From: Clostridia bacterium
GTDB lineage: Bacteria; Bacillota; Clostridia; Oscillospirales; CAG-272
Assembly (NCBI GenBank): GCA_017938205.1
Contig: JAGBCA010000011.1
Coordinates: 1-44,029, forward strand
DNA: 44,029 bases
Direction of reading: 5' to 3'
The notes below the pieces were generated by a model, which was not told where the DNA came from, did no database searches, and saw only the letters and a program-made list of their open reading frames with translations. This document shows, in pieces, positions 188-37,285 of this stretch. The number at the start of each line of letters is the position of its first letter. The stretch's first letter is position 1. Position numbers and translations under genes: made by a program.

Positions 188-1897
188 TCAGATTTTTTGG
201 GCCTCAATTTTTTTCATCACCGCCGCCCAGCGTCTTTCATGGCTTTCGTGAGTAAAGATCGGACGGAAACCGAGTGAAAGATAGAGACGGATGGCAGGGA
301 TGCGCGCATCGTCCGTGGAGAGGAGCGCGCTCTTAAAGCCGCGCTCACGAAGCGCGTGCAGTGCCGCAAGGGCGATCCATTTGCCCATGCCCTCTCCACG
401 CGCGCTTTGATGTACGCCGACCATACGGAACCAGCCCTCGCCCGGATACGCCTCGTTTTCCACGGCGGTTGCCGTTGCGATCTTTTTGCCGTTTCTTACA
501 AGGTAAAGCACGTGATCGGGTGCATAGTCGCCACGCGTGCGCAGAAAATCAAAGGAATAGGGGTGGCCAAAGGCGCTCTTGATCAGCTCCTCCCATTCCG
601 CCTCTTCTCCTTCCTTATGCGTATGCACCGTGACTTTTTCGGGAAGATCCAGGGTGGGAAGACTCGTTATATCGGGATTGCGCATCAAAAGCTGCGGCAA
701 GGGATTCCCCTTTGGTGGATCGCCAAAATCCGGAACCTCAAGCACGGCACCGCCCTGCTTGATCGACTCATAGGCAACGAGCCCCGGAACGGTGTATCTT
801 GCGGCAAGCCATGCGTTGACGGTGGGAATCGTGCCCTCGTACACCGCCGTGCAGAAATCGTTGATCAGGAACTGATGGCTGGCCATATGGCCGTTTGGCA
901 GATCCTTATAGGCATCGGGCAAAACGTCGGGCGTTTGGATCGGGGCAAAGCTGTTCCACTGCCAGGTATGGTTTGCCACGCGCTCCTTGAAATCGGGATC
1001 GTTTTTATGCGCGGTCATATCCGTGGGGTTGACGTAATCGCTCACGTCCGCCAAGGAAACACCGCTCTCCGAGAGCGAGGTGTAGACGTGCTGGGCATTG
1101 GAGAACTGATAGGAGGCCTTCGTGCCGTAGAAGGCAGAAATAAACGAGGAGGGGGCTTTATAGCCGATACGGCGGCACTCGTTGATACGGATCACACCGC
1201 CGTTTTCAAGCGTCATCAGCGAGAATGCGTTGGAGATCGTGTTGTCCCAAAGGTTTACACCCTTTTTGAAGATCGGATCGTCCTCGGTGTCCTCATAGCC
1301 AAAGGCGGAGACCTTGGTTACGTGCGAGCCCGTGGCCGCAAGCACCATCGAGAGCGAATGCGTGGGGTAAAAGAAGGGCGGCACGCCCATGGCGGCAAGA
1401 TCCGAGCGATGCTTCTCTGAAAAATGCGAAATGTCGTGATGATACTGCGCCTCGGCATAAACGAATTTACCCATTTCGCCGCTTTCAAAGCGCTCCTTGC
1501 AGAACATGGAGCAGGGGTAATAAATGCAGGTTTCACCCATCATATAGGTCAGTCCCGTTTGCTCCACGAGGCGCACGATCTCTTCGCAGTGGCTGATCTC
1601 GGAGGCCATCGGCACGGCACTGTATACGTGTCTGCCCGCCTTCAAGGCCTGAACGACTAAGGGACCGTGCGTGTGGCGCGGCGTGAAGATGGCAACGGCA
1701 TTGATGTCCGTTTCGAGAAGCTCATCCAAGCTATGATAGTATTCCACGCCGAAGCGCTCGCCGAAGTCCTTGGCATTTTGCTCGTCCGTGTCTGCCACTA
1801 CGACGCGCTCCACATATGGATGCTGCTTAAAAAGCTCGACGAAGGAAGCGGAAAACTGTCCGCAGCCGAGAATACCGATACGAATTTTTTCTTTCAT
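188..1897 (-). CDS. Gfo/Idh/MocA-type oxidoreductase fused to GNAT acetyltransferase
   Basis: 569 aa, two domains. Residues 1 to about 395 form a Gfo/Idh/MocA-like protein, with a Rossmann fold starting GILGCGQF and a C-terminal alpha/beta domain. Residues of about 430-565 form a GNAT N-acetyltransferase with the acetyl-CoA loop RGEGMGK (500-506). The usual EKP motif carrying the catalytic lysine is AVP here (94-96, within YSAVPMA), and the usual GGG..D.G.H motif is replaced by YPTHSLSM. Classical NAD-dependent sugar oxidation is therefore doubtful. The next gene upstream is a paralogue with the same changes but no GNAT domain. The two overlap by 4 bp (ATGA), so they are translationally coupled. 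The start has an AAAGGA site upstream, and MKEKIRIG matches the paralogue's start. A sugar-modifying role is inferred; the substrate is unknown. Confidence 0.85.
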   Translation of the reverse strand: MKEKIRIGILGCGQFSASFVELFKQHPYVERVVVADTDEQNAKDFGERFGVEYYHSLDELLETDINAVAIFTPRHTHGPLVVQALKAGRHVYSAVPMASEISHCEEIVRLVEQTGLTYMMGETCIYYPCSMFCKERFESGEMGKFVYAEAQYHHDISHFSEKHRSDLAAMGVPPFFYPTHSLSMVLAATGSHVTKVSAFGYEDTEDDPIFKKGVNLWDNTISNAFSLMTLENGGVIRINECRRIGYKAPSSFISAFYGTKASYQFSNAQHVYTSLSESGVSLADVSDYVNPTDMTAHKNDPDFKERVANHTWQWNSFAPIQTPDVLPDAYKDLPNGHMASHQFLINDFCTAVYEGTIPTVNAWLAARYTVPGLVAYESIKQGGAVLEVPDFGDPPKGNPLPQLLMRNPDITSLPTLDLPEKVTVHTHKEGEEAEWEELIKSAFGHPYSFDFLRTRGDYAPDHVLYLVRNGKKIATATAVENEAYPGEGWFRMVGVHQSARGEGMGKWIALAALHALRERGFKSALLSTDDARIPAIRLYLSLGFRPIFTHESHERRWAAVMKKIEAQKI

Positions 1898-3177
1898 TTT
1901 CTATTTTCCTTTCTATATTCGTCATACGTATTGGGATTGACCTCACGATCCTCGGAAAGCACCTCTATTCCCTGTGGGGGATCGCCGAGATCGGGTACGT
2001 CCATCGTTTTTCCGTTTTGCATCGCGCTCTCGTGCGCTATGAGGCCGGGAATGTTGTATCTTGCAGCCTGCCACGCATTCGTTGGCGATAGCTTGCCCGT
2101 GACGTATGCCTGACAAAAATCATCCACCATAAATTTGTGCGTGCCTGCATGGCCGGTTCCAACCTCCGCAAGCTCGATCGGTAAGCGATCCACGCGTTGG
2201 ATCGGCGCTTCCGCACTCGACCACGCACCCTCTGCCGCTCTTTCGAGAAAATCCGAATCGTTCTTATGCGCTGTCAGCTCGATCGGGTTCAGAAGATCGC
2301 TCACGTTTTCATACTCAACCGTCTTATCCTTTGCGCGCACGAAGCTATGCTGCACAAGAGAGCACTCATACGAGGCGGCCGTGCCGTTAAAACAAGTGAT
2401 GTAGGTTTCGGGGAAATGCCATGCAATGCGGCGGTTTTCGCTCACACGAAGCACCGATCCGTCACTCATTTTAAGGAGCATGCTCGTATTGGAAAAAGGA
2501 TTATCCCAATAATTCTTGCCTTCTCCGAAGATATCCGTATCCTTTCGCTCTTCATAGCCAAAGGCAGAAACACGCACCGCGTGTGCCTTGGTGGCAGATA
2601 GAAGCATAGACGTGGAATGCGTTGGATAATACAGAGGCGGCAGACCTGCCATCTTGCGCCACGCATCCCCCTCCGTATACTGAAAGGTATGATACAAGCG
2701 ACTCATATCGTGGTTATACTGCGACTCTGCGTACACGAGATCACCGATCTCACCCGAAGCATACTTCTGGCGGCAAAAGATCGCGGCAGGGCGATAAATT
2801 CCCGTTTCGCCCATCGAATAGGTCAATCCTGTTTCCGAAACAAGACGAACGATCTCACGGATCTCTTCCACGCTCGTTGCCATCGGAACGGCACTGTAAA
2901 CGTTCTTCCCCGCCTTCAGAGCAGCGATCGCCATTTCGCCATGCTGATTTCTCTGCGAGAAGATGGCAATACAGTTGATCTCGTCAGAAGCAAGCATTTC
3001 TTCATAGGTGTCAAAAATACGGTCACAGCCGAAACGATCAAAATAATCCTTGGCACGCTCGGGAAATTTATCACAGACCGCGATGTACTCCACAGCCGGA
3101 TGCGCCTTGAAAATCGGAACGAAGCCTCTGCAGAACTGACCGCAGCCAACGAAGCCGATACGAATTTTTTCTTTCAT
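1894..3177 (-). CDS. Gfo/Idh/MocA-type oxidoreductase, non-canonical active site
   Basis: 427 aa from the ATG at 3177, chosen because MKEKIRIG aligns with the downstream paralogue. A TTG two codons further upstream is possible. GGAGG lies about 9 bases before the ATG. The N-terminal Rossmann fold begins IRIGFVGCGQF. The EKP lysine motif is again missing (AVP at 95-97), and the histidine-bearing motif reads YPTHSTSM. It belongs to the same subfamily as the gene downstream and clearly arose with it by duplication. It is the first gene of the pair and has its own sigma-A promoter, divergent from an AraC regulator that probably controls both. Binding of a sugar or cyclitol is inferred; enzymatic oxidation is not assured without the lysine. 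Confidence 0.85.
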   Translation of the reverse strand: MKEKIRIGFVGCGQFCRGFVPIFKAHPAVEYIAVCDKFPERAKDYFDRFGCDRIFDTYEEMLASDEINCIAIFSQRNQHGEMAIAALKAGKNVYSAVPMATSVEEIREIVRLVSETGLTYSMGETGIYRPAAIFCRQKYASGEIGDLVYAESQYNHDMSRLYHTFQYTEGDAWRKMAGLPPLYYPTHSTSMLLSATKAHAVRVSAFGYEERKDTDIFGEGKNYWDNPFSNTSMLLKMSDGSVLRVSENRRIAWHFPETYITCFNGTAASYECSLVQHSFVRAKDKTVEYENVSDLLNPIELTAHKNDSDFLERAAEGAWSSAEAPIQRVDRLPIELAEVGTGHAGTHKFMVDDFCQAYVTGKLSPTNAWQAARYNIPGLIAHESAMQNGKTMDVPDLGDPPQGIEVLSEDREVNPNTYDEYRKENRK

Positions 3178-5807: not shown

Positions 5808-6863
5808 TTATTTCAAGATCCTTTTGAGGGTGGGAAGGAAGCCCTTCGCCATAAAGTAAAATCCGCAATCGTTCGGATGGCAATTGTCCACGGTGCAGTA
5901 GTCTATATCCGTGTTCTGATAGAAGGAGGCACCGTCTACGAAATAGATGTTTTCGTCCTCTTTATAGTTTCTTAAGTAAGTATCCATTACCACAGCGCGG
6001 CGAAGCTCCTTGGCACGCTGCCCTGCCTTCATAGGCTTCCAGAAATCGGGGCAGGAAGCAAAAATGATGGGAAGCGTGGGGTTCTTTTCGCGGATGATCT
6101 TATAGAAGCGCTCGTGCGTTTTTTCAAGATGCTCGACGGAGGGGGCGTTATGATCGTAGTCCATCACGAAGGCGCTCATAGGAAGAGAGGCGATATATTC
6201 CGCCATCACGTCCTCGCCTCTGGCACTGCCCGAGAAGCCGAGGTTAATATGATCCACCGAAAGCTCGCGCGAGAGCTTTGCCTGATAGGCATTGCCGGGG
6301 CGAGAGGCGCAACCGCCCTGGGTGATGGACGAGCCGTAATACACGATCGGGGGAATATCCCGGTAAGGGTTATAGGCTTCGAGGCTTGCACCCTTTTCAA
6401 GACCGATATACAGGCTTTCTACGGCACTGTACAGTGGGAAATGGATCAGGAGATCTCTATCCTCATTCGTTTCAAGGGTGATCAGACCGCCGAAGCCGTC
6501 CTCTATGAGATATGGCGGTTGGTAAGTGCTAAGATATTGCGTTTTTTCATAAATATCAAAGCCTGCAAAGCCGCAAGCGGTGAAGTGCGAAAAACGCGCC
6601 ACGCTGCGCATTTTTGCGCTGATAGCTACGTATCGGGAATTCGTGCGGAAGGTAACTCGCCCACCTGCAGAATGCTCATGCAGGGCGTATACACCATCGT
6701 TGGTCGCTTTGGCAACCGCATCGGGAAGGCGGCAGAAGGAATCGTCCTCATACATCAAGCCCCATACCTTGAAGGGGGTCTCTCTGACGTCAAAATACTC
6801 CAATTCTACGCCTTCGGGCAGGCTCTTCGGCTTAAAATTCTTATCAATGTCCTCGATTCTCAT
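5808..6863 (-). CDS. SGNH/GDSL-type hydrolase with N-terminal jellyroll
   Basis: 351 aa. The N-terminal 160 residues resemble the GxDLY-type beta-sandwich found ahead of some SGNH esterases (AGFDIYEK, about 100-107). The catalytic domain starts with block I GSSITQG (177-183, nucleophile Ser179) and ends with the Asp/His pair in DNCHPND (D326, H329). No signal peptide is seen, so a cytoplasmic carbohydrate esterase is likely, for example removing acetyl or other acyl groups from imported sugars. AAAGGAAA precedes the ATG. It lies 29 bases downstream of the YfcE-type phosphoesterase and is probably co-transcribed with it. Its substrate cannot be read from sequence. Confidence 0.88.
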   Translation of the reverse strand: MRIEDIDKNFKPKSLPEGVELEYFDVRETPFKVWGLMYEDDSFCRLPDAVAKATNDGVYALHEHSAGGRVTFRTNSRYVAISAKMRSVARFSHFTACGFAGFDIYEKTQYLSTYQPPYLIEDGFGGLITLETNEDRDLLIHFPLYSAVESLYIGLEKGASLEAYNPYRDIPPIVYYGSSITQGGCASRPGNAYQAKLSRELSVDHINLGFSGSARGEDVMAEYIASLPMSAFVMDYDHNAPSVEHLEKTHERFYKIIREKNPTLPIIFASCPDFWKPMKAGQRAKELRRAVVMDTYLRNYKEDENIYFVDGASFYQNTDIDYCTVDNCHPNDCGFYFMAKGFLPTLKRILK

Positions 6864-7699: not shown

Positions 7700-8037
7700 G
7701 CACGGCAGGCGGGCAAGGCCCGGATCTTTCAAGAATCGTAAGCCTGATCATGCAAAATCCCGATCTGATCCGACAAATTGAGGCACTTGCTAAGGATAAT
7801 TCCGAAAATACGGAAGCCGATACGCAGGTAAGCTCCCCTCCGCTCCCTGCCCCCGAGGAGACGGAGGCGGTGAGCAAGACAGCGCACGCAAGTGTCGCGG
7901 TGCGCGGCGCGGATAAGCGCGAAAAGCGCACGCAGCTGCTTTCTGCTCTGCGCCCCTACGTTTCCGAGAAGCGCGGAAAAACCATTGACACGCTGCTTGG
8001 CGCGATGGATCTTTGGGATCTCGTGGGAAGGGGGTAA
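7696..8037 (+). CDS. Small protein of unknown function, second of a trio
   Basis: 113 aa. The N-terminal 40 residues (PDLSRIVSLIMQNPDLIRQI) look amphipathic and helical. The middle is low in complexity and rich in S, P, E and T. The C-terminal 40 residues have a positively charged helical segment, LLSALRPYVSEKRGKTID, then LLGAMDLWDLVG. I have the impression that this C-terminal pattern recurs in short clostridial proteins, but I cannot name a family. It is translationally coupled to the upstream gene by a 4-bp overlap and sits 2 bases before the next start. A partner or scaffold role for the third, membrane-associated protein is possible but is inference only. Confidence 0.72.
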   Translation: MSTAGGQGPDLSRIVSLIMQNPDLIRQIEALAKDNSENTEADTQVSSPPLPAPEETEAVSKTAHASVAVRGADKREKRTQLLSALRPYVSEKRGKTIDTLLGAMDLWDLVGRG

Positions 8038-8039
8038 GC

Positions 8040-8420
8040 ATGTACGCACGAAGCTATGAAAAAAACGCGTTTGAGGAGGAGGTACAGCGCACGCTTCCGA
8101 GCGGCTACAGCGGTGTTGCCTTTGAAAGCGAGGCGGCAGAGCCGCCGCAGCAGGACGATATTGTGCTGCGCAGAGAGGAAAGCGTTCCCACGGCACAGGA
8201 AGCAACCGAGGCAGGGGGCTTTTCTTCCCTGCTTACGCGCATTCCCTTTTTACAAAGGATCAAGCTTCCCTTTTGGGAAAAATTTTCCATCGGCAGCTGG
8301 TTTTCCGACACGGAGGATCTTCTCCTCCTGGGGCTCGCGCTCCTGCTGCTCCTATCGAAGGAGGGCGATCCGCTCTGCGCCGTAGCGGTGCTGATCCTGT
8401 TTTTCTCGGGAAAGGACTGA
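8040..8420 (+). CDS. Small protein with C-terminal membrane segment, third of a trio
   Basis: 126 aa from the ATG at 8040 (MYARSYEKNAF), supported by GGAAGGGGG just upstream and by the 2-base gap from the previous stop; an earlier in-frame ATG lies inside the preceding gene. Residues 1-90 are polar. The last 35 residues are strongly hydrophobic (LLLLGLALLLLLSKEGD then AVAVLILFF), forming one or two short membrane helices with a charged turn. No known family is recognised. The trio ends 6 bases before the convergent polC stop with no evident terminator, so the transcript may run into the antisense of polC. Confidence 0.75.
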   Translation: MYARSYEKNAFEEEVQRTLPSGYSGVAFESEAAEPPQQDDIVLRREESVPTAQEATEAGGFSSLLTRIPFLQRIKLPFWEKFSIGSWFSDTEDLLLLGLALLLLLSKEGDPLCAVAVLILFFSGKD

Positions 8421-8426
8421 AAGTAC

Positions 8427-11400
8427 TTAGAACATAGAAAATTGGTTGGTTTCCGTCAGCCCATCCAGAACGCGGTTACGGCGAAGGATCTCAACCACCG
8501 TTTTGGAAATGCCCGTGCGGCGGCGCAGATCCTCAACGGAATAGATCTCAAAGTTTTCTCTTGCCTCGATGATCTTATCCGCGGCGGTATCGCCGAGACC
8601 GGGCAAGGAATTGAAGGGCATACGGATCTTGCCGTTTTCGGGCAGGAAGGCCGTGGCATCCGAGCGGCGCAGATCGACGCTTAAGAACTGCACGCCGCGC
8701 GCAAGCGCTTCGCGCACGAGCTGGAGGGTGGTGAGCATTTCATTGTCCTTCTGCGTTGCCTCCTGCCCCTTTTCCTCAAGCTCCTTGATGGTTTCGTTGA
8801 CCTTGCGCAGGCCGCCGCCCACGATCTCGGCATCAAAGCCGCCGGGCGCAACGGTGAGGAATGCGGCGTAGAACTCCATCGGATAGTAGATTTTATACCA
8901 GCAAAGGCGGATCGCGGACATTACGTAGGCCGCGGCGTGCGCCTTCGGGAACATATATTTGATCTTTTTGCAGGAGGCGATGTACCAATCCGGCACGTCG
9001 TGCTCGCGCATGGTCTGCTCGTATTCGGGCTTTAGACCCTTACCCTTTCGCACGTCCTCCATGATCTTGAAGGAGATCGAATCCTCAATGTCGTGGCGCA
9101 GAAGGTAGAGCATGATACCGTCTCGCGTTCCCACGACCTCGGAAATGGTGCAGGTACCTGCTTTGATCAGATCCTGCGCGTTGCCGAGCCAAACGTCCGT
9201 GCCGTGCGTCAGTCCCGAGATCTGCAAAAGGTCCGCAAAGGTCTTGGGCTTTGCATCCAAAAGCACCTGCTGGATGAAGCGCGTGCCCATCTCGGGAATG
9301 CCGTACGTTCCGAGCTGACAGCCGCCGAGATCCTCCGGCGTGATGCCGAGGGGGGCGGTGCTTGCAAAGAGCTCGTACACGCTCTTATCGTTCATCTTCA
9401 CGTCGAGAACGCTGGTGTTCGTGTATTTTTCGAGCATCTTATACTTGGTTGGCATATCGTGTCCAAGCTCGTCCAGCTTCAGTATCGTATCGTGCAGATA
9501 GGAGAACTGGAAGTGCGTGGTGATGATGTCGGAATTGGGGTCGTCCGCCGGGTGCTGTACGGGAGAGAAATCGTAAATATCGTATTCCTGCGGCACAACG
9601 ATGATACCGCCGGGATGCTGACCCGTGGTGCGCTTGATACCCACCATCTGCGTGACCATATAGCCGATCTGCGCCTTGGGGATCTTGATGCGGCGCTCCT
9701 CGAGATATTTATTGATATAGCCCCATGCGGTCTTATCTGCCAGAGTACCGATCGTTCCCGCGCGGAACACCTGTCCCGAGCCGAAGAGCTCCTCCGTGTA
9801 CTTATGCACCTTACCCTGCACGTCACCCGAGAAGTTCAGGTCAATATCGGGAGATTTATCACCGTAGAAGCCGAGGAAGGTCTCGAAGGGAATATCGTGA
9901 CCGTCCATGATCAGATCCTCGCCGCACCTCGGGCACTTGGCATCGGGCAAATCAAAGCCCGAGCCGATCTTGCCATCCGTGAAAAACTCGGTGTATTTAC
10001 ACTTCGGACAGCGATAATGCGGCGGCAGGGGATTTACCTCCGAGATGCCCGACATTGTGGCAACGAAGGAGGAGCCGACCGAGCCGCGCGAGCCGACCTG
10101 GTAGCCGAGGCTTTCGGAATAGGCAACGAGCTTTACGGCGATCATATACAACACGGCAAAGCCGTTTTTGATGATGGAATCCAGCTCCTTTGTCAGACGC
10201 TTGGAAACAAGCTCCGGCACGGGATCTCCGTACCATTCTTTGGCTCTTTGCCAACAAGAGTTTACAAGATCCTCCTTTGCGCCAGGAAGATCGGGCTCGT
10301 AACGGCCTTCGGGGATAGGACGGATCTTCTCGATCATATCCGCGATCTTGTTCGGATTTTCGATCACGACCTCCTCGGCGACCTCACGTCCGAGATACAT
10401 AAATTCCTCCAGCATCTCATCGGTGGTACGAAGGTAAATGCCGGTATCCTTATCCGCATCGGAGAACTTCTGCCCTGCAAGCAGGATCTTACGGTACAGC
10501 TCGTCCTCCTTATTCATAAAGTGCGCATCACAGGTGGCGCAGACGGGCTTGCCGAGCTTTTTACCAAGATCAACGATCTGGCGGTTGATGTCCTTCAGCG
10601 CCTCCTCGCTTGCCACCTTTCCCTCTTCTACGAGGAAGCGGTTGTTGCACAGGGGCTGGATCTCCAGATAATCGTAAAATGCGGCGATCTCTTCAATATC
10701 CTGGGTGCTTCTTCCGTCGAGGATCGCTTTATAAAGCTCGCCCGCCTCACAGGCCGAGCCGATGATCAGGCCGTCTCTGTGCTGCTCGATCACGGATTTC
10801 GGCATACGCGGAAAACGCTTGAAATAATCGAGATAGCCGTAGGAGACAAGCTTATAGAGATTTTTGAGGCCTTCCTTGTTTTTCGCAAAAATGATGATAT
10901 GATGGGTGGGGAGCTTCTTCGGATCGGTGCGCTCGCTCATAGCCTCCGTCATACGCTCAAAGGTGTCGATCCCCTCCTCGCCGAGGCGCTTTTGCATCAC
11001 GAAGAAGATGTGCGCCAAGATCTTCGCATCGTCCGATGCGCGGTGGTGATGGAAGTCCTCTAACTGATAGTGCTTGGCGATCGTATCGAGCTTATGGTTT
11101 TTCAGCTCGGGGTTGACGTATTTTGAAAGTCCGACCGTATCAAGGAAGGTGTTATCAAACGGCATTCCCTGCCGCTCGGCGGCAACGCGGATAAAGCCTA
11201 CGTCAAAGTTTGCGTTGTGCGCAATCAGAAGGCGGTCGCCGGCGAAGGCAAAAAACTGCTCCAGCGCTTCCCTCTCCTTTGGTGCGCCCTTGACCATTTC
11301 GTTCGTGATCGAGGTCAGCTGCGTGATCTCCTCGGGGATCTCGCACTCGGGATCGACGAAAATATCCATTTCGTCCACGACCTCGCCCGCACGGATCAGA

Positions 11401-19493: not shown

Positions 19494-20807
19494 TTACTTG
19501 CCTGCCTGCATCTCGGCAACAGCCTCGAGGATCGCATCAGCCATGTAAATGAGCTGCTCCTCGTCAAGGCCGTAGAGAGGAAGGTGCGTGAAGCGCTTGT
19601 AGAATACTTCCTCGCAAACGGGACAGGTCTTTGCAACCTCATCGGGATCGATACCCATGATCGTATGAACAACGTTGAAGCGGTAGAGAGGACCGAAGTG
19701 AGGAATGCTGGTTACACCCTTCTCCTCGAGTTTCTTCTTCAGCGTCTGGATCGTGCCGCCTGCCTTTGCAGGGTCGATCTGCAGAAGGTACATATGGTAA
19801 GTAGGCTTCACGTTCTCATCGTCAAGCTTGCAGGGGATGATCGCATCGCAAACAGAGAGTCTCTTGTTGAGGTACTCTGCAGCAGCGCGGCGCTCTGCAA
19901 TGATCTTCTCGTTTCTTGCGATCTGACGAGTAAGACCAAGACCCTGGATCTCGGTGGTGGAGGAGTTGTTGGAAGCAACGAAGGGGCCGTACTTGCCCTG
20001 GATGGGAGTGATGTTATAGAGCCAATCCTTGATGGGGCAGGTGAAGTCCAGACCAAGGAAGCGCGCACGCTTCAGCTCACCGTCATAACCGGGGATGGTG
20101 GTGGTAACGATACCACCCTCACCGAAGGAGGTGATATTCTTAACCTCGTGGAAGGAGAAGGAAGCAAAATCACCGATGGTACCGATCATCTTGCCCTTAT
20201 ACATTGCACCGAATGCATGAGCGGCATCCTCAAGCACAACGATGTTATGCTTCTTTGCAAGCTCCATGATGGGATCCATATCTACGGGATAGCCTGCAAG
20301 GTGAACGGGAACGATCATCTTGGTCTTGGGAGTGATCTTCTTCGCAACGTCTGCGGGATCCATGTTCAGCGTGCGGGGATCAACGTCAGCAAATACAAGC
20401 TTGCAGCCGATGGAAAGAGGATATGCCATCGTTGCAACGAAGGTGATGGCGGGAACGATAACCTCGTCGCCTGCCTTCAGGTTTGCATACTTGTATGCGA
20501 TCTCGAAGCCTGCGGTAGCGTTGGTAACGAAGGTGGAGCTATCCGTCTTCAGATATGCGTTGGATGCGGCCTCTGCAGCCTCAACGTGCTTAGCAAGAGA
20601 GAGCTTGCCGGGAGGGGTTGCAACAGCGTCCAGCTTCTGAACCTGCTTCCAAACAGCCTCGATCGCCTCGTCGTATTCCTTTCCTTCGCCCTGCATCAGG
20701 AAGCGAATTACCTCCATAAGGTCCTCAGCATTGTAGTTCTCGCCTACAGCAGCCCACGGAACCTTAGTTGCGCCGGTATTATACCGGAAATCAGTGCTCT
20801 TGCCCAT
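19494..20807 (-). CDS. DegT/DnrJ/EryC1/StrS-family aminotransferase
   Basis: 437 aa, PLP-dependent, somewhat longer than the usual 370-400 aa because of about 60 extra N-terminal residues. Seen are the fold-type-I landmarks VIVPAITFVATM, FADVDPRTLNMD, VLEDAAHAFGA (PLP-binding Asp) and SFHEVKNITSFGEGG, where the lysine after HEV is the Schiff-base residue. The family transfers amino groups to or from keto-sugars and keto-cyclitols. A PLP lysine is present, so it should be an active transaminase. It is the last gene of a minus-strand series after an AraC regulator and a jellyroll protein. It faces a deacetylase/dehydrogenase/kinase operon across the divergent promoter, so catabolism of an amino sugar or aminocyclitol is a reasonable inference. 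Confidence 0.93.
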   Translation of the reverse strand: MGKSTDFRYNTGATKVPWAAVGENYNAEDLMEVIRFLMQGEGKEYDEAIEAVWKQVQKLDAVATPPGKLSLAKHVEAAEAASNAYLKTDSSTFVTNATAGFEIAYKYANLKAGDEVIVPAITFVATMAYPLSIGCKLVFADVDPRTLNMDPADVAKKITPKTKMIVPVHLAGYPVDMDPIMELAKKHNIVVLEDAAHAFGAMYKGKMIGTIGDFASFSFHEVKNITSFGEGGIVTTTIPGYDGELKRARFLGLDFTCPIKDWLYNITPIQGKYGPFVASNNSSTTEIQGLGLTRQIARNEKIIAERRAAAEYLNKRLSVCDAIIPCKLDDENVKPTYHMYLLQIDPAKAGGTIQTLKKKLEEKGVTSIPHFGPLYRFNVVHTIMGIDPDEVAKTCPVCEEVFYKRFTHLPLYGLDEEQLIYMADAILEAVAEMQAGK

Positions 20808-20871: not shown

Positions 20872-21495
20872 TTAAAATTCAGGCTCATAAACCTGGGGGA
20901 ACTCTTCCCATTTGATCTCTCTGACCTCGATATCCTTGATGCGAAGCTTGGTGCAATACGGAGAAAATCCGACGGCACCGCCGATCAGAGGATCCGGATC
21001 GTACAGCTCGGTGATCAGCACATCATCCACCACCATAAAGCAATGCCCTTGCACCGCGCCGCAGATCATATGGATCTCCGTGCCCGGCTCATAGTGATAC
21101 AGAGGGCTGATGGAATTGAGGCCCGGCTGCGGATTGCGCTCGATGCCGCTCTTGTGCTCGTACCAGCCGTTAAGACCGCAAACATAGGAATCACCGAGAT
21201 AATTGTTTTCCTCGTCCACGCGGGCGCAGAAAAGCGCATTCAGATCTCTGGTGGCAGGCAGAACGGATGCCATCGTGAAGCTGAACATCACGTCCTTTTC
21301 GTAAAATTCATGCGTGAGAAGGATGCCGCCGAAATTCCCGGTCTCCTCTCCGATCAGCCATCCGTTTTCCACCGACCATTTTCCGCGCAGACGGCGAAAA
21401 ATCTTCTCCCAATTTTCGTCCGGCTGATAGGACATAACAACGGGGGAATTCTCAATGTCGATCTTTTTTCCGCAAAGGTGAAGCTCTTTTAACAC
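20872..21495 (-). CDS. Concanavalin-like jellyroll protein (DUF1080/LamG-like)
   Basis: 207 aa from a GTG at 21495, chosen because GAGG lies 6 bases upstream; a TTG nine codons earlier lacks a site. The protein is beta-rich throughout. Segments WSVENGWLIGEE, LLTHEFYEKDVMFSFTM, FCARVDEENNYLGDSYVCG and the C-terminal VGFSPYCTKLRIKDIEVRE resemble the sugar-binding or sugar-lyase sandwich of the DUF1080 (3-keto-disaccharide hydrolase-like) group. No signal peptide is seen, so it would act inside the cell. It lies between the AraC regulator and the DegT gene and is probably co-regulated with them. Whether it is an enzyme or a binding protein cannot be told. Confidence 0.72.
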   Translation of the reverse strand: MLKELHLCGKKIDIENSPVVMSYQPDENWEKIFRRLRGKWSVENGWLIGEETGNFGGILLTHEFYEKDVMFSFTMASVLPATRDLNALFCARVDEENNYLGDSYVCGLNGWYEHKSGIERNPQPGLNSISPLYHYEPGTEIHMICGAVQGHCFMVVDDVLITELYDPDPLIGGAVGFSPYCTKLRIKDIEVREIKWEEFPQVYEPEF

Positions 21496-21607
21496 GACAC
21501 ACCTCAAACTATACTTCTTCAAATTTAATTATACACAAAAAAACTCTGCTTGTCAATAGCCGTTTTCATTTTATTTTCGGTTTTCACACAGGCAAAAAGA
21601 AGGCATA

Positions 21608-22504
21608 TCACGCCCTGCCCATCCTTTTTCTGCCGACCGAGCGCTTATACACCGTGGGGGTAACTCCGATGATGCGCTTGAAGCTCTTGGAAAAATAATT
21701 CGGCGTATCAAAGCCAAGGCACTCCGCGATCTCGCGCACGGAAAGCGCGGTGGTAGAAAGAAGCTCGGCGGCGCGCCGTATTCTTCTTTCATTATAATAA
21801 GCGATGATGCTCTTTCCCGTGGCGCGCTTGAACTCGCGGAAGATATAGGCTCGGCTGTAGTTCGTTTGCCTGGCAATATCCTCCACGCGAAGAGCACCCG
21901 TGAGATTTTCATCCATCATGCGGATGATATGCGAAACGAGACGCCCCTGCAGCTCGCTTTTTTCGATGAACACGGGATTGCCCTGCTCCGTCTCCGTCAG
22001 CGACCGCATGAGACTGATCAAAAATAGCTCAAGATAGTTTTTGATCAGCTGCTCTCCTCCGAGCGTCGGCGCGGGAAGAAGCTCCATTCTCTGCCGATCC
22101 GGATCGCTCTCTGCCATATCGAAGGTTTTTTCCCCTTCCTCAAAAACCGAATACAGAAGGCGAAGGCAGCGCTCGTCCGGACGAAGCTTTTTCTCCTCAA
22201 AAAAGCGCATGGCCTCCGATTTGCATTCAAAGGAAACGACTCTCACCAAAGGATCCTTGCGGCCGTTTGCCATCAGGACGTGATGCTCGTTGGGCTTATG
22301 GAAAAGGACCTCCCCCTCCTCCAGGATGATTTCCCTGCCGTCCGCCGTGCAAACGAGGCTCTCCCTTTCAGCAAACACGATCTCCCAGAAGTTATGAGAC
22401 TCGCCCGCCGAGGAAAATCCTTTATCAAAGGAAAAACGATGCAGCGTTACGATCTTATTGACCAAAAGAAGGTTTTCGATCTTGTGATAAAAATACTTTT
22501 TCAT
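21608..22504 (-). CDS. AraC-family regulator, probably leaderless
   Basis: 298 aa from the ATG at 22504 (MKKYFYHKIENLL). The in-frame ATG at 22522 lies inside the promoter and cannot be the start if that promoter is used. The N-terminal cupin domain includes ESHNFWEIVFAERE and EGEVLFHKPNEHHVL. The C-terminal double helix-turn-helix runs from LRVEDIARQTNYSRAYIF to CLGFDTPNYFSKSFKRIIGV. There is no ribosome binding site. The -10 box ends 8 bases before the ATG, so transcription should begin at or within two bases of it. It is divergent from the PIG-L operon and upstream of the jellyroll and DegT genes, the natural targets. Confidence 0.92.
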   Translation of the reverse strand: MKKYFYHKIENLLLVNKIVTLHRFSFDKGFSSAGESHNFWEIVFAERESLVCTADGREIILEEGEVLFHKPNEHHVLMANGRKDPLVRVVSFECKSEAMRFFEEKKLRPDERCLRLLYSVFEEGEKTFDMAESDPDRQRMELLPAPTLGGEQLIKNYLELFLISLMRSLTETEQGNPVFIEKSELQGRLVSHIIRMMDENLTGALRVEDIARQTNYSRAYIFREFKRATGKSIIAYYNERRIRRAAELLSTTALSVREIAECLGFDTPNYFSKSFKRIIGVTPTVYKRSVGRKRMGRA

Positions 22505-22512
22505 ATGCAAAG

Positions 22513-22541
22513 AGTATAACATAAGAGAGGCAAAAAGTCAA
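22513..22541 (-). promoter_or_regulatory. Near-consensus sigma-A promoter, leaderless start
   Basis: On the minus strand: TTGACT (22541-22536), 17-base spacer, TATACT (22518-22513). The ATG at 22504 begins 8 bases past the -10 box, exactly where transcription should start. Confidence 0.75.
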
Positions 22542-22577
22542 GTAGACTTTTTTACTCTTTTCGTGTACGATTGAGCA

Positions 22578-22606
22578 TTGTTTTTTATTCTCCCGAATGC
22601 TATAAT
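22578..22606 (+). promoter_or_regulatory. Promoter of the PIG-L/Gfo-Idh/NagB-like/PfkB operon
   Basis: TTGTTT (22578-22583), 17-base spacer, TATAAT (22601-22606) with TGC upstream (extended -10). It lies 36 bp from the divergent araC promoter, which suggests shared control. The leader of about 57 bases carries ACGGAGG before the ATG at 22670. Confidence 0.7.
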
Positions 22607-22669
22607 AAAATCGTATATTATATTCTTTTTAAGACTTGACGAAAAAGTATTTACGGAGGAAACAAAACC

Positions 22670-23377
22670 ATGAGAATTTTGGCCATCGGCGCACATCCCG
22701 ACGATATCGAGATCGCCTGCTCCGGCACGCTCGCAAAATGCGCCGCACGCGGCGACAAGGTGTTCGTTTGTCACGTATCCAACGGCGACCTCGGACACGT
22801 GATCATTCCGCCCGAGGAGCTCGGCATCATGAGACAGAACGAGGCAAAAACCGCAGGATCGCTTGCAGGCATTGAGGTGATCTGGGGCGGCTGCCATGAC
22901 GTGAAGATCTATGCCGACGACAAGGATGCAAGAGATAAGATCGTTGACGTGATCCGTTACGCACAGCCCGATCTGATCATCACCCACAATCCCGACGACT
23001 ATATGCCCGACCATACGGCGGTCTCCAAGCTCGTTTACGACGCAAGCTTTGCCGCATCCGTTCCCGGCTACAAGACCGAGAAGGATCTGCCCGCCTCCAA
23101 GCTGACTCCCATTTATTATATGGACACGCTGGCTGGCGTAAACTTCCAGCCCGAGCTCTACGTGGATATTACCGACTTTATCGATAAGAAGATCGATATG
23201 CTGGAGTGCCATAAGAGCCAGCTCGAATGGATGAGAGAGCACGACCACATCGATTTTGCAGACATGGTGAGAACCTGCTCCCGCTATCGCGGCTATCAGT
23301 GCGGTGCGGACTACGCCGAGGGCTTCATCGTTTGCAAGGCATATCTGAAGGGCACGACCGAAAGACTGCTTCCCTAA
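22670..23377 (+). CDS. PIG-L/LmbE-family deacetylase
   Basis: 235 aa. Zn-dependent de-N-acetylase family acting on N-acetyl sugars and related pseudo-disaccharides. The zinc motif AHPDD lies at 8-12, with the third ligand His115 in MPDHTAVSKLV. A conserved NPDDY precedes it. No signal peptide is seen, so the enzyme is cytoplasmic. It is the first gene of a four-gene operon (Gfo/Idh, NagB-like, PfkB follow), which suggests it deacetylates the entering substrate. It is larger than a plain BshB but within the family range. Bacillithiol synthesis is an alternative role, but the sugar-catabolic context argues against it. Confidence 0.93.
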   Translation: MRILAIGAHPDDIEIACSGTLAKCAARGDKVFVCHVSNGDLGHVIIPPEELGIMRQNEAKTAGSLAGIEVIWGGCHDVKIYADDKDARDKIVDVIRYAQPDLIITHNPDDYMPDHTAVSKLVYDASFAASVPGYKTEKDLPASKLTPIYYMDTLAGVNFQPELYVDITDFIDKKIDMLECHKSQLEWMREHDHIDFADMVRTCSRYRGYQCGADYAEGFIVCKAYLKGTTERLLP

Positions 23378-23416
23378 TTGTAATTTAATTCAAATATATA
23401 AAGAGAGGTACATACC

Positions 23417-24427
23417 ATGAAAATGAAATGGTGCGTTATCGGTGCGGCAGGCATTGCCGACAGAAGAACCATCCCCGCCCTCGTGGCAGACGAGGAGAAT
23501 CAGCTCTGCGCCGTTATGGACAAGGTTGAGGATGCGGCCAAGGCCGTTGGCGAGAAGTACGGTGTTCCCTATTACACCGATGCAGAGCAGATGCTGAAGG
23601 AGGTTGCCTGCGACGCCGTTTATATTGCTACCCCCGTATTCTGCCATTATGAGCAGGCTATGCTTGCGCTCAAATACGAAAAAAACGTTCTGATCGAGAA
23701 GCCCATCGCAAGAACCGAGGCTGAAAGCGCAGAGATCCTGGATGCCTTCAAGAAGGCAGGCAAGCAGCTGAGCGTTGGCTACATGATGAAGTATCACAGC
23801 CTCCATCAGAAGGCGCGCAGCTTCATCAAGAAGGACAAGGTCGGTAAGGTAAACAACGTACGCCTACAGTTCTCCTGCTGGTATCCCGACATCCCCGGCG
23901 CATGGCGCCAGATCAAGTCTCTCGGCGGCGGCGGCGCGATCATGGACCTCGGCGTTCACTGCCTGGAGCTTGCGGAGTATATCCTTGACGAGGAGATCAT
24001 CGACGTTAAGTCCTTCATCAACACCCAGACCTTCAAGTATGAGGTTGAAGATAGCGCCGTGATCATCTTCAAGACCAAGAGCGGCACGCTTGGTCACATC
24101 GACGTGAACTTCAACATTCCCGACGACGTTTCGATCGCAAAGCTCGAGATCTACGGCACAAAGGGCTACATGATCTGCAACAACACTCTTGCACAGGATG
24201 ATGTTGGAACGATGGCTTATCTCTACGCACCTCAGGGCGATTACGATGCAATGCAGGAGCACATCATCATTAAGCCCAAGAAGTTCCGTGCAAGCGGCAA
24301 GAACATCTACGCAAAGCAGCTCGCTGAATTTGCAAAGCACGTAAAGGCAGGCAAGCCCAACTACAAGTACGCAAAGAGAGCCGTTCACATCCAGGCACTC
24401 TGCGACAAGATGTACGCAGAGCAGTAA
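23417..24427 (+). CDS. Gfo/Idh/MocA-family sugar dehydrogenase
   Basis: 336 aa, canonical length. The N-terminal Rossmann fold begins CVIGAAGIADRR. The catalytic lysine motif is intact as EKP (94-96, Lys95), and the second motif is GGGAIMDLGVHCLEL with the expected Asp and His. This protein should therefore be a working NAD(P)-dependent dehydrogenase of a sugar or cyclitol, unlike the two family members at the start of the window. AGAGAGG precedes the ATG, 39 bases after the PIG-L stop. Codon use is strongly biased towards C-ending codons in this operon, suggesting high expression. Confidence 0.95.
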   Translation: MKMKWCVIGAAGIADRRTIPALVADEENQLCAVMDKVEDAAKAVGEKYGVPYYTDAEQMLKEVACDAVYIATPVFCHYEQAMLALKYEKNVLIEKPIARTEAESAEILDAFKKAGKQLSVGYMMKYHSLHQKARSFIKKDKVGKVNNVRLQFSCWYPDIPGAWRQIKSLGGGGAIMDLGVHCLELAEYILDEEIIDVKSFINTQTFKYEVEDSAVIIFKTKSGTLGHIDVNFNIPDDVSIAKLEIYGTKGYMICNNTLAQDDVGTMAYLYAPQGDYDAMQEHIIIKPKKFRASGKNIYAKQLAEFAKHVKAGKPNYKYAKRAVHIQALCDKMYAEQ

Positions 24428-24467
24428 TCCGTTCATAATAAAAAACTTCACATAAAGGAGAACTATC

Positions 24468-25412
24468 ATGGATTTTAATTCTACCGTTAAAGGCAGCCTT
24501 CTCGAGGGCTTCTATCCCGAAGGCTGGGATTTCGAAAAGATCGACGCTTGCTGCTCCCACGCTCCCTCCGAGGTGCTGGACAGACAGGCATTCTGGAACA
24601 AGGACTTCTCTCCCGTAAAGTGCGACAGCCTTGACGAATTCAACGTTAAGATGGGCCACGAGATCGCAAACGAGATCAAGAAGGCAAACGAGAGAGGCGA
24701 GAAGATCGCTTTCATCCTTCCCGTTGGTCCTATGGGTATGTACAAGTGGGCCGTTTACTTCCTTAAGGAGTGGAACGTTTCCTGCAAGAACGTATGGTGC
24801 TTCAACATGGACGAGTGGGCTGATGCCGAGGGCAACACCATCACCGGCGAGGCTTCCTTCCAGAGCGCAATGGAGAACGCATTCTACAATCCCCTGGGCG
24901 AGCTGACCGTTCCGAAGGATCACAGAAACTTCGCTACCAAGGAAAACCTTCCCACCTACCCCGAGAAGATCGCCGCTCTTAAAAAAGAGGGCGCAAAGCT
25001 CGTTCTTGTTTACGGTATCGGCCGTATGTGCCACATCGCATTCTGGGAGCCCCAGTTCGGCTCCGAGTTCACCTCTGACGAGGAGTGGCTGAAGCAGCCC
25101 TACAGAATCGCCGCAAAGCTCCATCCTCTGACGATCGAGCAGAACGCGATCACCTCCTTCAGAAGCCGTACGAGCATGGTTCCCTGCCGTGCAAACACCA
25201 TGGGCCCCGGCCTTATGTTCCAGGCTGACTACGCCATCGGCGGTGCTGACGGCTGCTTCAACCGCGGTATGCAATGGCAGGGCATGAGCTTCTGGATGAC
25301 GCTGCGCTACACGCCCACCAGATTCATCACCTCCTCCTTCATTCCCACCATTCCCGGTAAGCTCTTCTTCCTTGAGGAGCTGGCAGGTCCTCTCTGCCCT
25401 GACGTGAACTGA
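24468..25412 (+). CDS. NagB-like sugar isomerase/deaminase family protein
   Basis: 314 aa, longer than the 240-266 aa of NagB. The fold is recognisable by FNMDEWAD (Asp115-Glu116, matching the FNMDEY site with catalytic Asp72 of E. coli NagB) and by [14 protein letters not shown]. The latter matches GVGVDGHIAFNEP but has Met187-Cys188 where NagB has the ring-opening Asp141 and Gly. The partner His189 and Glu194 are kept. The protein may therefore bind a sugar phosphate but act differently from glucosamine-6-phosphate deaminase, perhaps on another amino sugar or as an isomerase or lactonase. AAAGGAG precedes the ATG. It is followed after one base by a PfkB kinase. Confidence 0.85.
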
Positions 25413-25413
25413 T

Positions 25414-26379
25414 ATGGCAGGAATCGCAATTGCAGGAAGCATCCTGGTTGATAAGATCAATGAGATCAGCGCCTACCCCTCGGTTGGCGAGCTTACCCAG
25501 ATCCGCGCGGTAAAACGCGCGGTGGGGGGCTGCGTTCCGAACGTGGCGATCGACCTCAAAACCCTCTCTCCCGAGACCGATATCTACGCCATCGGCAAGG
25601 TTGGCCAGGACGACGAAAAGACGTTTCTTCTCCACGAGCTTGGAGATCGCGGCATTGACCTTACGGGTATTCGCGTGAGCCGCAAGGAGCGCACCAGCTT
25701 CACCGAGGTTATGAGTATCGTCGGCGGACAGAGAACCTTCTTTACTTATCCCGGTGCGAGCGCAGCCTTCGGCCTTTCGGATATGAATTTCGAGAGCTTT
25801 AAGGCGGATATGCTCCATCTCGGTTATTTCCTTCTGCTTGACAAGGTGGATGGCGGCGACGGCGAGAAGATCCTTGCCAAAGCAAAGAGCCTTGGTATCA
25901 AGACCTCAATTGACCTCGTAAGCGAAAATTCCGACCGCTATAAGCTCGTGATCCCCTGTCTGAAGTACACGGACAACGTGATCATCAACGAGTCCGAGGC
26001 CGGCAAGATCGCGGATATGGAGCCCACGAAGGAAAATCTCAAGGCGATCGCACAAAAAATCATGAGCTACGGCATCGGCGAGCGCGTGATCATTCATATG
26101 CCTGCGCTTTCGGTTTGCCTCTCGAAGGACGGCACCTACACCACCCTTCCCTCCTATGATCTGCCGAAGGGCTTCATCCAGGGAACGACCGGTGCGGGCG
26201 ATGCCTTCTGTGCGGGCGCACTGCTCGCCATCTATCTTGGAAAGAGTGACGAGGAGATCCTCGCCATTGCCTCCAAGGCTGCCGTTGGCGCTCTTTCCGC
26301 GGCTGACGCCGTGAGCGGAATGAAGAGCCTTTCGGAGCTGGATGCACTTTGCGCCACGATGAAGCTGCAGAGCATCTGA
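25414..26379 (+). CDS. PfkB-family carbohydrate kinase
   Basis: 321 aa. The ribokinase-like fold shows the N-terminal GGCVPNVAIDL substrate region and the C-terminal anion hole and catalytic base in TTGAGDAFCAGALL. It begins one base after the stop of the NagB-like gene (TGATATG) with no clear ribosome site, so translation is coupled. It should phosphorylate a sugar or sugar acid, and in this operon probably primes the product for glycolysis. A strong hairpin terminator follows. The preferred sugar cannot be read from sequence. Confidence 0.93.
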   Translation: MAGIAIAGSILVDKINEISAYPSVGELTQIRAVKRAVGGCVPNVAIDLKTLSPETDIYAIGKVGQDDEKTFLLHELGDRGIDLTGIRVSRKERTSFTEVMSIVGGQRTFFTYPGASAAFGLSDMNFESFKADMLHLGYFLLLDKVDGGDGEKILAKAKSLGIKTSIDLVSENSDRYKLVIPCLKYTDNVIINESEAGKIADMEPTKENLKAIAQKIMSYGIGERVIIHMPALSVCLSKDGTYTTLPSYDLPKGFIQGTTGAGDAFCAGALLAIYLGKSDEEILAIASKAAVGALSAADAVSGMKSLSELDALCATMKLQSI

Positions 26380-26405: not shown

Positions 26406-26445
26406 GACCGAGCCATTTGCTTTGAAAAAAGCATTTGGCTCGGTC
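26406..26445 (+). terminator. Intrinsic terminator after the PfkB gene
   Basis: GACCGAGCCATTTGCTTT pairs with AAAGCATTTGGCTCGGTC (two mismatches in the middle), loop GAAA, followed by TTATATTATTATC. It closes the 22.7-26.4 kb operon. The sequence from 26446 to 26516 is AT-rich with no gene seen. Confidence 0.8.
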
Positions 26446-35971: not shown

Positions 35972-37285
35972 TTAAAGTATTTTATAGCCCGCGCTCTCGT
36001 GCGCATCGAAAAGCTCGTCGCACATTTTGATAATATCGTCGATCGAAAGCTCGGCGGCGGTGTGCGGCTCAAGCATCGCGGCGTGATAGATATGCTCTTT
36101 TTTGCCGGTAACGGCAGCCTCAATGGTGAGAAGTTGGGGATTGATATTCGTCATATTCATTGCCGCGCATTGGACGGGCAGGCGACCGACGCGCGTGGGG
36201 TGGATGCCGGCGCCGTCTACAAGACAAGGAACCTCCACGCAGGCATCGTGAGGCAGGTTTTCGATCAGGCCGCCGTGATTTTGCACGTTGCCGCCGATCT
36301 GATACGGCGTGTTCGTTACGATCGATTCCATAATGCGCGAGGCGTATTCGTGCGTACGCACGTGCGTGATGTCCCCCGCAACAAGCTTAGGGCCGAGCGC
36401 ATTCCATTCCCTGATCTGGTTTTCACAGCGGCGAAGATATTCGTCGATCGGGATGTTGAAGCGATCGATCAGCTCGGGGTATTTCGATTTGATGTAGAAG
36501 GGATTGTATTCCGCGTTATGCTCGCTGGACTCGGTACAGTAATAGCCGAGCTTATCAATATAATCGTAGCGCACCATATCGCCGTGCTTTTGTGATGCAT
36601 TTTTCTTCTTGGCTCGCTGACGGATCTCGGGATACAGATCGTTGCCCTGCGTATCGTACACCTCAAGCAGCCAAGCCATATGGTTGATGCCCGCGATCAA
36701 CTCGCGCCCCACCTTGGCATCCATCTGAAGTCCCGACAAAAGATGCTGCGTGCAAACCTGCACACTATGGCAAAGACCAACGGTTTTCACCCCTGTGAAG
36801 CGCTGCATATACCCCGAAACGATAGCCATGGGATTGGTGTAATTCAACAACAGGGCATCCGGGCAGACCTGCTCCATATCCTTCGCAAAATCCTTCATTA
36901 CATGGATGGTGCGCAGGCCGCGGAAGATGCCGCCGATGCCGAGGGTGTCCCCGATCGTTTGATAAAGTCCGTATTTTTTCGGTATCTCAAAATCAAACAC
37001 CGTGCAGGGCTTATAACCGCCAACGGCGATGGCATTTACTACAAAATTCGCGCCGTGAAGTGCTTCCCTGCGGTTTTCCACGCCAAGATATTTTTTTACG
37101 GATGCCTTGCTTTCCCCTACGTTTCGGTTCAGAGCGCATACCATCCGATACGACTGCTCCAGGCGCTCACCGTCGATGTCGTAAAGCGCGATCTCGCACT
37201 CGCGCAGAGCCTCGGTCAATAAAACGTCGCCGAGAACGTTTTTGGCAAAAACGGTGCTTCCCGCACCCATAAACGTGATCTTCAT
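35972..37285 (-). CDS. GH4-family glycosidase (alpha-galactosidase/glucosidase type)
   Basis: 437 aa from the ATG at 37285 (AAGGAG 7 bases upstream); a GTG one codon earlier is possible. GH4 enzymes use NAD and Mn to cleave glycosides by transient oxidation. The NAD-binding start is TFMGAGSTVFAKNVLGD. The substrate and metal motifs NYTNPMA, GLCHSVQ and GINHMAW are all present. A C-terminal helical domain follows. No signal peptide is seen, so it acts on imported, possibly phosphorylated, sugars. It is divergent from an AraC regulator across 110 bp. A weak TAAAAT lies at 37318-37313 on the minus strand. Substrate choice (galactoside, glucoside or galacturonide) cannot be fixed from sequence. 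Confidence 0.94.
   Translation of the reverse strand: MKITFMGAGSTVFAKNVLGDVLLTEALRECEIALYDIDGERLEQSYRMVCALNRNVGESKASVKKYLGVENRREALHGANFVVNAIAVGGYKPCTVFDFEIPKKYGLYQTIGDTLGIGGIFRGLRTIHVMKDFAKDMEQVCPDALLLNYTNPMAIVSGYMQRFTGVKTVGLCHSVQVCTQHLLSGLQMDAKVGRELIAGINHMAWLLEVYDTQGNDLYPEIRQRAKKKNASQKHGDMVRYDYIDKLGYYCTESSEHNAEYNPFYIKSKYPELIDRFNIPIDEYLRRCENQIREWNALGPKLVAGDITHVRTHEYASRIMESIVTNTPYQIGGNVQNHGGLIENLPHDACVEVPCLVDGAGIHPTRVGRLPVQCAAMNMTNINPQLLTIEAAVTGKKEHIYHAAMLEPHTAAELSIDDIIKMCDELFDAHESAGYKIL

Follow-up and report, generated by a model that had tools for sequence, protein, structure and literature searches.

A PIG-L and NagB-like gene unit of gut Clostridia and a possible late-phosphorylation route for amino sugars

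Gene organization at the locus

We analysed a stretch of 44,029 nucleotides from a Clostridia bacterium (contig JAGBCA010000011.1 of assembly GCA_017938205.1), hereafter the window, meaning the whole stretch. In it, four plus-strand genes coding for a PIG-L protein, a Gfo/Idh dehydrogenase, a NagB-like protein and a PfkB kinase are separated by intergenic gaps of 39, 40 and 1 bp. The draft genome, 84% complete, amounts to 2.36 Mb, with the window as its contig 72, and the closest named loci come from Clostridia metagenome-assembled genomes of water-deer rectum and sheep colon. An AraC gene is divergent from the operon, with 165 bp between them, and a jellyroll-like gene and then a DegT gene lie beyond it. 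All of these were located as described in the first-pass annotation of this DNA, which had proposed an amino-sugar or aminocyclitol pathway. Pfam backed each assigned class except those of the NagB-like and jellyroll proteins. The genes are the following:

22670..23377, plus strand: PIG-L/LmbE family protein, predicted deacetylase, core gene
23417..24427, plus strand: Gfo/Idh dehydrogenase (Pfam), optional partner
24468..25412, plus strand: NagB-like protein, core gene, predicted from fold and residues to be without the 6-phosphate site
25414..26379, plus strand: PfkB sugar kinase (Pfam PF00294), predicted ketose kinase
21608..22504, minus strand: AraC family regulator (Pfam), divergent
20872..21522, minus strand: jellyroll-like protein without Pfam match, loosely linked
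19494..20807, minus strand: DegT aminotransferase (Pfam PF01041), loosely linked by genome co-occurrence

PIG-L and NagB-like genes form a mobile unit

Scanning one genome per species gave 557 relatives of the NagB-like protein, the best 80 of which were fetched; 43 of these 80, with at least 5 kb on either side, are called well-flanked below. In all, 106 loci were gene-called by a purpose-written codon-score script, which missed some genes (for instance the NagB-like gene of L131), and they include some genomes twice (for instance L006 and L099). The expected recurrence of the genes together elsewhere was borne out: in the well-flanked loci, PIG-L was found within 5 kb of the NagB-like gene in 40/43, PfkB and the AraC cluster each in 23/43, the Gfo cluster in 18/43, a class II aldolase in 15/43 and an MtlD-like dehydrogenase in 8/43, the last two never together (0/43). 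The corresponding counts over the 106 loci were 89 for PIG-L, 47 for PfkB, 44 for the AraC cluster, 33 for the aldolase, 23 for the Gfo cluster and 16 for the MtlD-like dehydrogenase. Gene order in Clostridia was AraC / PIG-L-(Gfo)-NagB-like-PfkB-aldolase, and in records titled Lentisphaerae or Kiritimatiellae it was NagB-like-PfkB-aldolase-PIG-L. The NagB-like proteins of these records are 76-81% identical to that of the window, suggesting transfer. PIG-L and NagB-like are thus the core of a real, mobile unit present in several phyla with varying gene order, PfkB and a YdjI-like class II aldolase are frequent partners, and Gfo is optional.

The NagB-like gene was found in 27/196 genomes of the window's family. 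In a phylum-wide draw, the profile of the NagB-like family matched 8/398 genomes at E 1e-30, own genome counted, and 5 of these 8 matches belong to the distant subfamily B; the family is therefore not common in the phylum. A plasmid search with the window protein gave no match at E 1e-15. The literature searched, in which most subscription journals were not covered, yielded no recognised publication on this gene set.

Residues of the NagB-like and PIG-L proteins

The NagB-like protein has the NagB fold and matches the NCBIfam nagB model TIGR00502 weakly (42.7 bits, below the cut-off of 236.9). D72, H143 and E148, which we take to be the NagB catalytic residues, are retained in 12 aligned members of subfamilies A and B, and own_L134 has D148. 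In the same 12 members, the positions that presumably bind the 6-phosphate in NagB (T41, the G43-T44 loop, R172 and K208) are replaced: T41 by V, R172 by I, L, F or Q and K208 by Q, with two residues of the G43-T44 loop deleted. Several arginines are invariant across the family. Judged from these aligned residues, the conserved unit appears to hold a NagB-fold enzyme without its phosphate site, a loss that had been overlooked in the first-pass annotation, as had the class II aldolase found after PfkB in other loci.

NagB-like genes were also seen in other settings. On a conjugative plasmid of Vibrio nigripulchritudo (L153:7959-8855), a loop-deleted one, with the K208 lysine retained, neighbours genes for a nucleoside hydrolase, an adenosine deaminase, a ribokinase and a CNT transporter. 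In Haloarcula pelagica, two divergent NagB-like genes share 37% identity (L152:6952-7809 and 7917-8777), one of them annotated 6-phosphogluconolactonase, and close to them lie ABC parts, a Gfo and an MFS transporter.

PIG-L/LmbE deacetylases carry an HxDD + H metal motif, according to PMC4101496. In PIG-L of the unit, H9, D11, D12 and H115 are invariant in 27 sequences. Its structural kin are mostly biosynthetic deacetylases. The PIG-L fold and the metal site are common to diacetylchitobiose deacetylase and BshB, whereas the window protein has Met for the His before the last metal His. The BshB1 NCBIfam model gave 143.7 bits, below the cut-off of 182.5, and the position of BshB Arg109 is Tyr in 89/89 PIG-L sequences. 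These two differences from BshB rule out bacillithiol synthesis, which had been named as an example of a refuting alternative.

Kinase, aldolase and ketose-handling partners

For PfkB, the top PDB sequence match of the family profile is YdjH. All 33 class II aldolases of the operon clusters, some of them truncated, are nearer YdjI than GatY or KbaY, the three proteins compared. NCBI annotates E. coli YdjH as octuluronate kinase and YdjI as octuluronate-1-phosphate aldolase. The KbaY Arg257 position, which we assume with some uncertainty to hold the second phosphate, is Leu in YdjI, and Arg was found in 0/11 operon aldolases having a residue there. Among the gene-called proteins searched, an AgaS query gave no match at E 1e-5. 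Two Haloarcula plasmids each carry a loop-deleted NagB-like gene and, after it and in the same orientation, glpR, kinase and fructose-bisphosphate aldolase genes. The first kinase is a prokaryotic ketohexokinase (PF25270, E 4.7e-139) and the second is 59% identical to it; these neighbours agree with a free ketose as product.

In L034, L037 and L087, a sugar O-acetyltransferase gene and the MtlD-like gene lie 3' of the NagB-like gene and before PfkB, without aldolase.

Gfo, DegT and jellyroll neighbours

The Gfo/Idh/MocA protein has a Rossmann domain by Pfam, and K95, D177 and H181, presumably the functional residues of these dehydrogenases, are invariant in 14 sequences. The Gfo cluster is mixed, with identities to the window Gfo from 65% down to 18%. 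Gfo and DegT had been proposed as pathway steps; as obligatory steps they found no support, with the Gfo cluster in 18/43 loci only and DegT adjoining the operon in no more than the two nearest species, where the jellyroll gene also flanks it. DegT and jellyroll were likewise rejected as operon members in subfamily A, being seen only in L032 and L033. A role of Gfo as a GH109 (glycoside hydrolase family 109) glycosidase was discarded as well: the window protein has no GH109 Pfam match, though GH109 genes lie near relatives.

The proposed DegT link survives at the level of genomes, where it is real but loose. Window-type DegT was found in 10/192 family genomes. In a co-occurrence test that merges two genome draws (n=196 and n=192), 9/10 of the DegT genomes carry the NagB-like gene compared with 18/182 of the others (Fisher p 5e-8), and 6/6 compared with 19/71 genera (p 2e-4), both uncorrected for relatedness. 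L128 and L129 hold PIG-L, NagB-like, DegT and Gfo in a single cluster, and in L130 all but PIG-L were called. In the nine other DegT genomes, all of which were fetched, DegT adjoins Gfo in two (G037 and G106) and jellyroll in two (G085 and G106). In G037, this Gfo is 57% identical to the Gfo cluster, and G106 has a row of jellyroll, DegT (frame in two pieces) and Gfo. G085, without a NagB-like gene, has jellyroll and two DegT genes together, the second DegT, cut by the contig end, being 64% identical to that of L129. G060 and G098 have DegT in the vicinity of a canonical-type NagB gene and of a gene that is NagA-like by eye. In G040, G184, G052 and G141, two of which have DegT at contig ends, DegT is without Gfo, jellyroll or NagB/NagA-like genes nearby. 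The nearest NCBIfam models of DegT are amino-deoxysugar transaminases, all below cut-off.

The jellyroll protein matched no PDB sequence up to E 1. PF06439 (3-keto-disaccharide hydrolase) found nothing in the window protein or in L171, and its match to the orthologue L164 (E 0.0011, 19.5 bits) was below the gathering cut-off of 26.8.

Substrate hints and the rest of the genome

GH20 genes were found in the fetched stretches of L046, L128, L134 and L144 and GH109 genes in L070 and L144, with a partial GH109-like gene in L082; these neighbours favour glycosides of N-acetylhexosamines (HexNAc). In L086, a symporter-like gene, named by eye, lies 3' of PIG-L.

NagA and a standard NagB had been reported missing, which is true only locally. 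Elsewhere in the genome, NagA was found twice above the NCBIfam cut-off, and NagB gave 7 matches, none above it. The two best-fitting NagB pieces, each at a contig end (C10, 174.8 bits; C46, 100.1 bits), probably represent one canonical NagB gene split by assembly. The claim that the operon does not serve ordinary N-acetylglucosamine (GlcNAc) use survives for another reason than the one given: such a role was rejected on account of the active site and of a NagA located elsewhere, not for absence of NagA.

Two other clusters of this genome were noted. L133 (C23:12000-31500) combines two loop-deleted NagB-like genes with genes for PfkB, a class II aldolase and a NagA-like amidohydrolase and with others that look by eye like FGGY kinase and AGE epimerase genes, and may be another late-phosphorylation route. 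L134 (C49:12000-31000) has a NagB-like paralogue, a NagA-like amidohydrolase, AraC genes, GH20, a ceramidase-like protein (PF04734, just below cut-off) and a Gfo 59% identical to the Gfo cluster. Ceramidase-like genes recur alongside subfamily B (L126-L130).

A possible pathway and its alternatives

In textbook amino-sugar breakdown, phosphate is added before the acetyl and amino groups are removed. We propose that the operon encodes a phosphorylation-last route for an N-acetylated amino sugar, likeliest a free or glycosidically bound HexNAc, a reading to which we give an even chance of being correct. It is based on linkage, fold, retained catalytic residues, replaced phosphate-site residues and partner genes; we infer every enzyme activity, the C1 site and the substrate. 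PIG-L would take the acetyl group off the unphosphorylated sugar. The NagB-like protein would then open the ring, isomerise C1/C2 in the manner of NagB and free ammonia from a substrate without 6-phosphate, giving a free ketose (fructose from glucosamine, tagatose from galactosamine). PfkB would phosphorylate this ketose, likeliest at C1, and the YdjI-like class II aldolase, which adjoins the unit in many relatives and lies outside the window operon, would split the ketose-1-phosphate into dihydroxyacetone phosphate and an aldehyde. Gfo and DegT may be accessory, for further substrates, acting in C3 oxidation, epimerisation, glycoside cleavage or removal of a second amino group. The enzyme classes thus suit the HexNAc side of the pathway first proposed. 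The aminocyclitol variant is disfavoured, since NagB chemistry requires a reducing 2-amino sugar and the His that opens the ring is retained.

Several observations weigh against this proposal. The His three residues before the last metal His of PIG-L is Met in 86/89 sequences, Cys in 2 and His in 1; it corresponds to BshB His110 and MshB His144, is conserved in LmbE-like enzymes and is needed in BshB, and deacetylation by PIG-L is therefore not assured. The structural kin of PIG-L also include a hydratase, GalB. The model of the NagB-like protein is poor at the catalytic loop (predicted local distance difference test, pLDDT, <50 at 186-189), so that the residue argument rests on alignment, and the roles of T41, R172 and K208 in phosphate binding are presumed. 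R172 is also absent from two NagB-type proteins outside the clade, Persicobacter NagB (P) and AgaI (L), and own_L136, outside the clade too, is likewise gapped in the loop. The Vibrio member, retaining K208, sits in a nucleoside operon, so the clade is not restricted to amino sugars. The window PfkB is only 23% identical to E. coli YdjH, which makes C1 a tentative site of phosphorylation. The window operon is without aldolase, the nearest aldolases of the genome being located elsewhere, and the MtlD-like dehydrogenase, never alongside aldolase, is unexplained by the scheme. GH20 and GH109 occur in few loci, at a rate without control, and no transporter was identified.

The NagB-like protein could instead use a phosphorylated amino sugar held by other residues, in a NagA/NagB-type route with PIG-L replacing NagA. 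This would suit the kept NagB fold and catalytic residues, the family-invariant arginines, the uncertain modelled loop and the own-genome NagB-type proteins that also vary at phosphate positions, but we find it unlikely: in the 12 aligned members the four positions presumed to bind the phosphate are all replaced and the loop has lost two residues, PfkB and the YdjI-like aldolase come next, and haloarchaeal members adjoin ketohexokinase genes. A similarly doubtful possibility is a substrate that is not 6-phosphorylatable, namely a HexNAc from microbial glycans in 6-deoxy, uronic or diamino form. It would be phosphorylated at C1 and then split by an aldolase, on the logic of L-fucose and L-rhamnose use, and DegT and Gfo would take off a second amino group. 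The replaced phosphate site, the uronate-type sugar in the annotations of YdjI and YdjH and the below-cut-off transaminase models nearest DegT speak for it, as does L089, where FGGY kinase and class II aldolase-domain genes of rhamnose type, partly named by eye, lie 5' of PIG-L; however, GH20 and GH109 near some members suit ordinary GlcNAc or N-acetylgalactosamine (GalNAc), and most carriers are without DegT, which 9/27 family carriers of the NagB-like gene have. Biosynthesis, in which Gfo and DegT would make an amino sugar or aminocyclitol, PIG-L would trim it and the NagB-like protein would run reversed or catalyse another reaction, is very improbable: Gfo and DegT are indeed neighbours in G037 and G106, L128 and L129 have both alongside PIG-L and NagB-like, and the kin of PIG-L are chiefly biosynthetic, but most carriers have no DegT, and the 33 aldolase-bearing loci, AraC control and the GH20 and GH109 neighbours indicate breakdown.

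Comparison with known systems

Like E. coli NagA-NagB, the unit pairs a deacetylase with a NagB-fold deaminase having D72, H143 and E148; it differs in having PIG-L for NagA and a NagB-like protein predicted to be without the 6-phosphate site, and in the kinase and often aldolase that follow. The E. coli Aga set for GalNAc and galactosamine also has a deacetylase, a deaminase/isomerase and a class II aldolase in one set, as PMC3668189 describes. It differs by a phosphotransferase system and 6-phosphates and by its deaminase AgaS, of the SIS fold and not NagB; the aldolases of the unit are nearer YdjI. E. coli YdjH-YdjI, like the unit, has a PfkB kinase adjoining a class II aldolase, but is without deacetylase or deaminase; some Kiritimatiellae loci add a YdjJ-like dehydrogenase, resembling this set further. 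By analogy, the proposed order of steps has a precedent in oxidative chitin use: in the OngB-OngC-KdgK route, deacetylation and deamination precede phosphorylation, although the substrate is an aldonic acid and the enzymes are a D-aminoacylase and pyridoxal phosphate-type enzymes (PMC9537276).

Regulation and other features of the window

The AraC regulator may govern the operon from the 165-bp gap. The candidate signals are:

22551..22567, plus strand: candidate regulator site TTTACTCTTTTCGTGTA, a 17-mer whose core recurs in AraC/PIG-L gaps
22578..22606, plus strand: operon promoter-like TTGTTT-17-TATAAT, by eye, absent from scan output
22513..22541, minus strand: AraC promoter-like TTGACT-17-TATACT, 10/12 matches
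26406..26445, plus strand: possible terminator, inverted repeat GACCGAGCCA/TGGCTCGGTC 3' of PfkB, by eye, absent from scan output

The candidate site lies directly upstream of the by-eye operon promoter. Its 10-mer core TTACTCTTTT, the best among all window-gap 10-mers tried, was found with at most one mismatch in 28/39 AraC/PIG-L gaps and in 1/39 of the control, a single mononucleotide shuffle, related loci inflating the count. Promoter-like sites at the 10/12 level numbered 7 in the stretch and 3.6 in shuffles. A genome search with TTTACTCTTTTCGTGTA gave one exact match, the operon itself, and no second, which suggests a local regulator. A regulon defined by this 17-mer was rejected: beyond the operon there was one match with 2 mismatches, and the reversed control gave 5.

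Elsewhere in the window, inspection by eye indicated a tandem pair of further Gfo/Idh-like genes (188-3177; 569 and 427 aa, from translations), a GH4 NAD-dependent glycosidase-like gene (35972-37285) and a protein of about 350 aa (5808-6863) with a look-alike in a subfamily-B cluster (L129:15411-16484).

Significance

In its widest form, the late-phosphorylation proposal would make the NagB clade without phosphate pocket, widespread from gut Clostridia to haloarchaea, a further main amino-sugar route (deacetylate, deaminate to free ketose, C1-phosphorylate, cleave). The window lineage would be tuned to microbial-glycan HexNAc that is not 6-phosphorylatable (6-deoxy, uronic or diamino), the second amino group being taken off by DegT and Gfo; we regard this extension as speculative and rather improbable. 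Relatives of the NagB-like protein bear the annotated names glucosamine-6-phosphate deaminase or 6-phosphogluconolactonase, and metabolic models would therefore pair them with phosphorylated substrates that probably do not fit their active sites. If the late-phosphorylation route is true, gain or loss of the NagB phosphate site would be directly testable at four positions, and the unit may provide enzymes converting free glucosamine to fructose. Many uncultured bacteria of herbivore guts would then have a separate route for using amino sugars of host or microbial origin.
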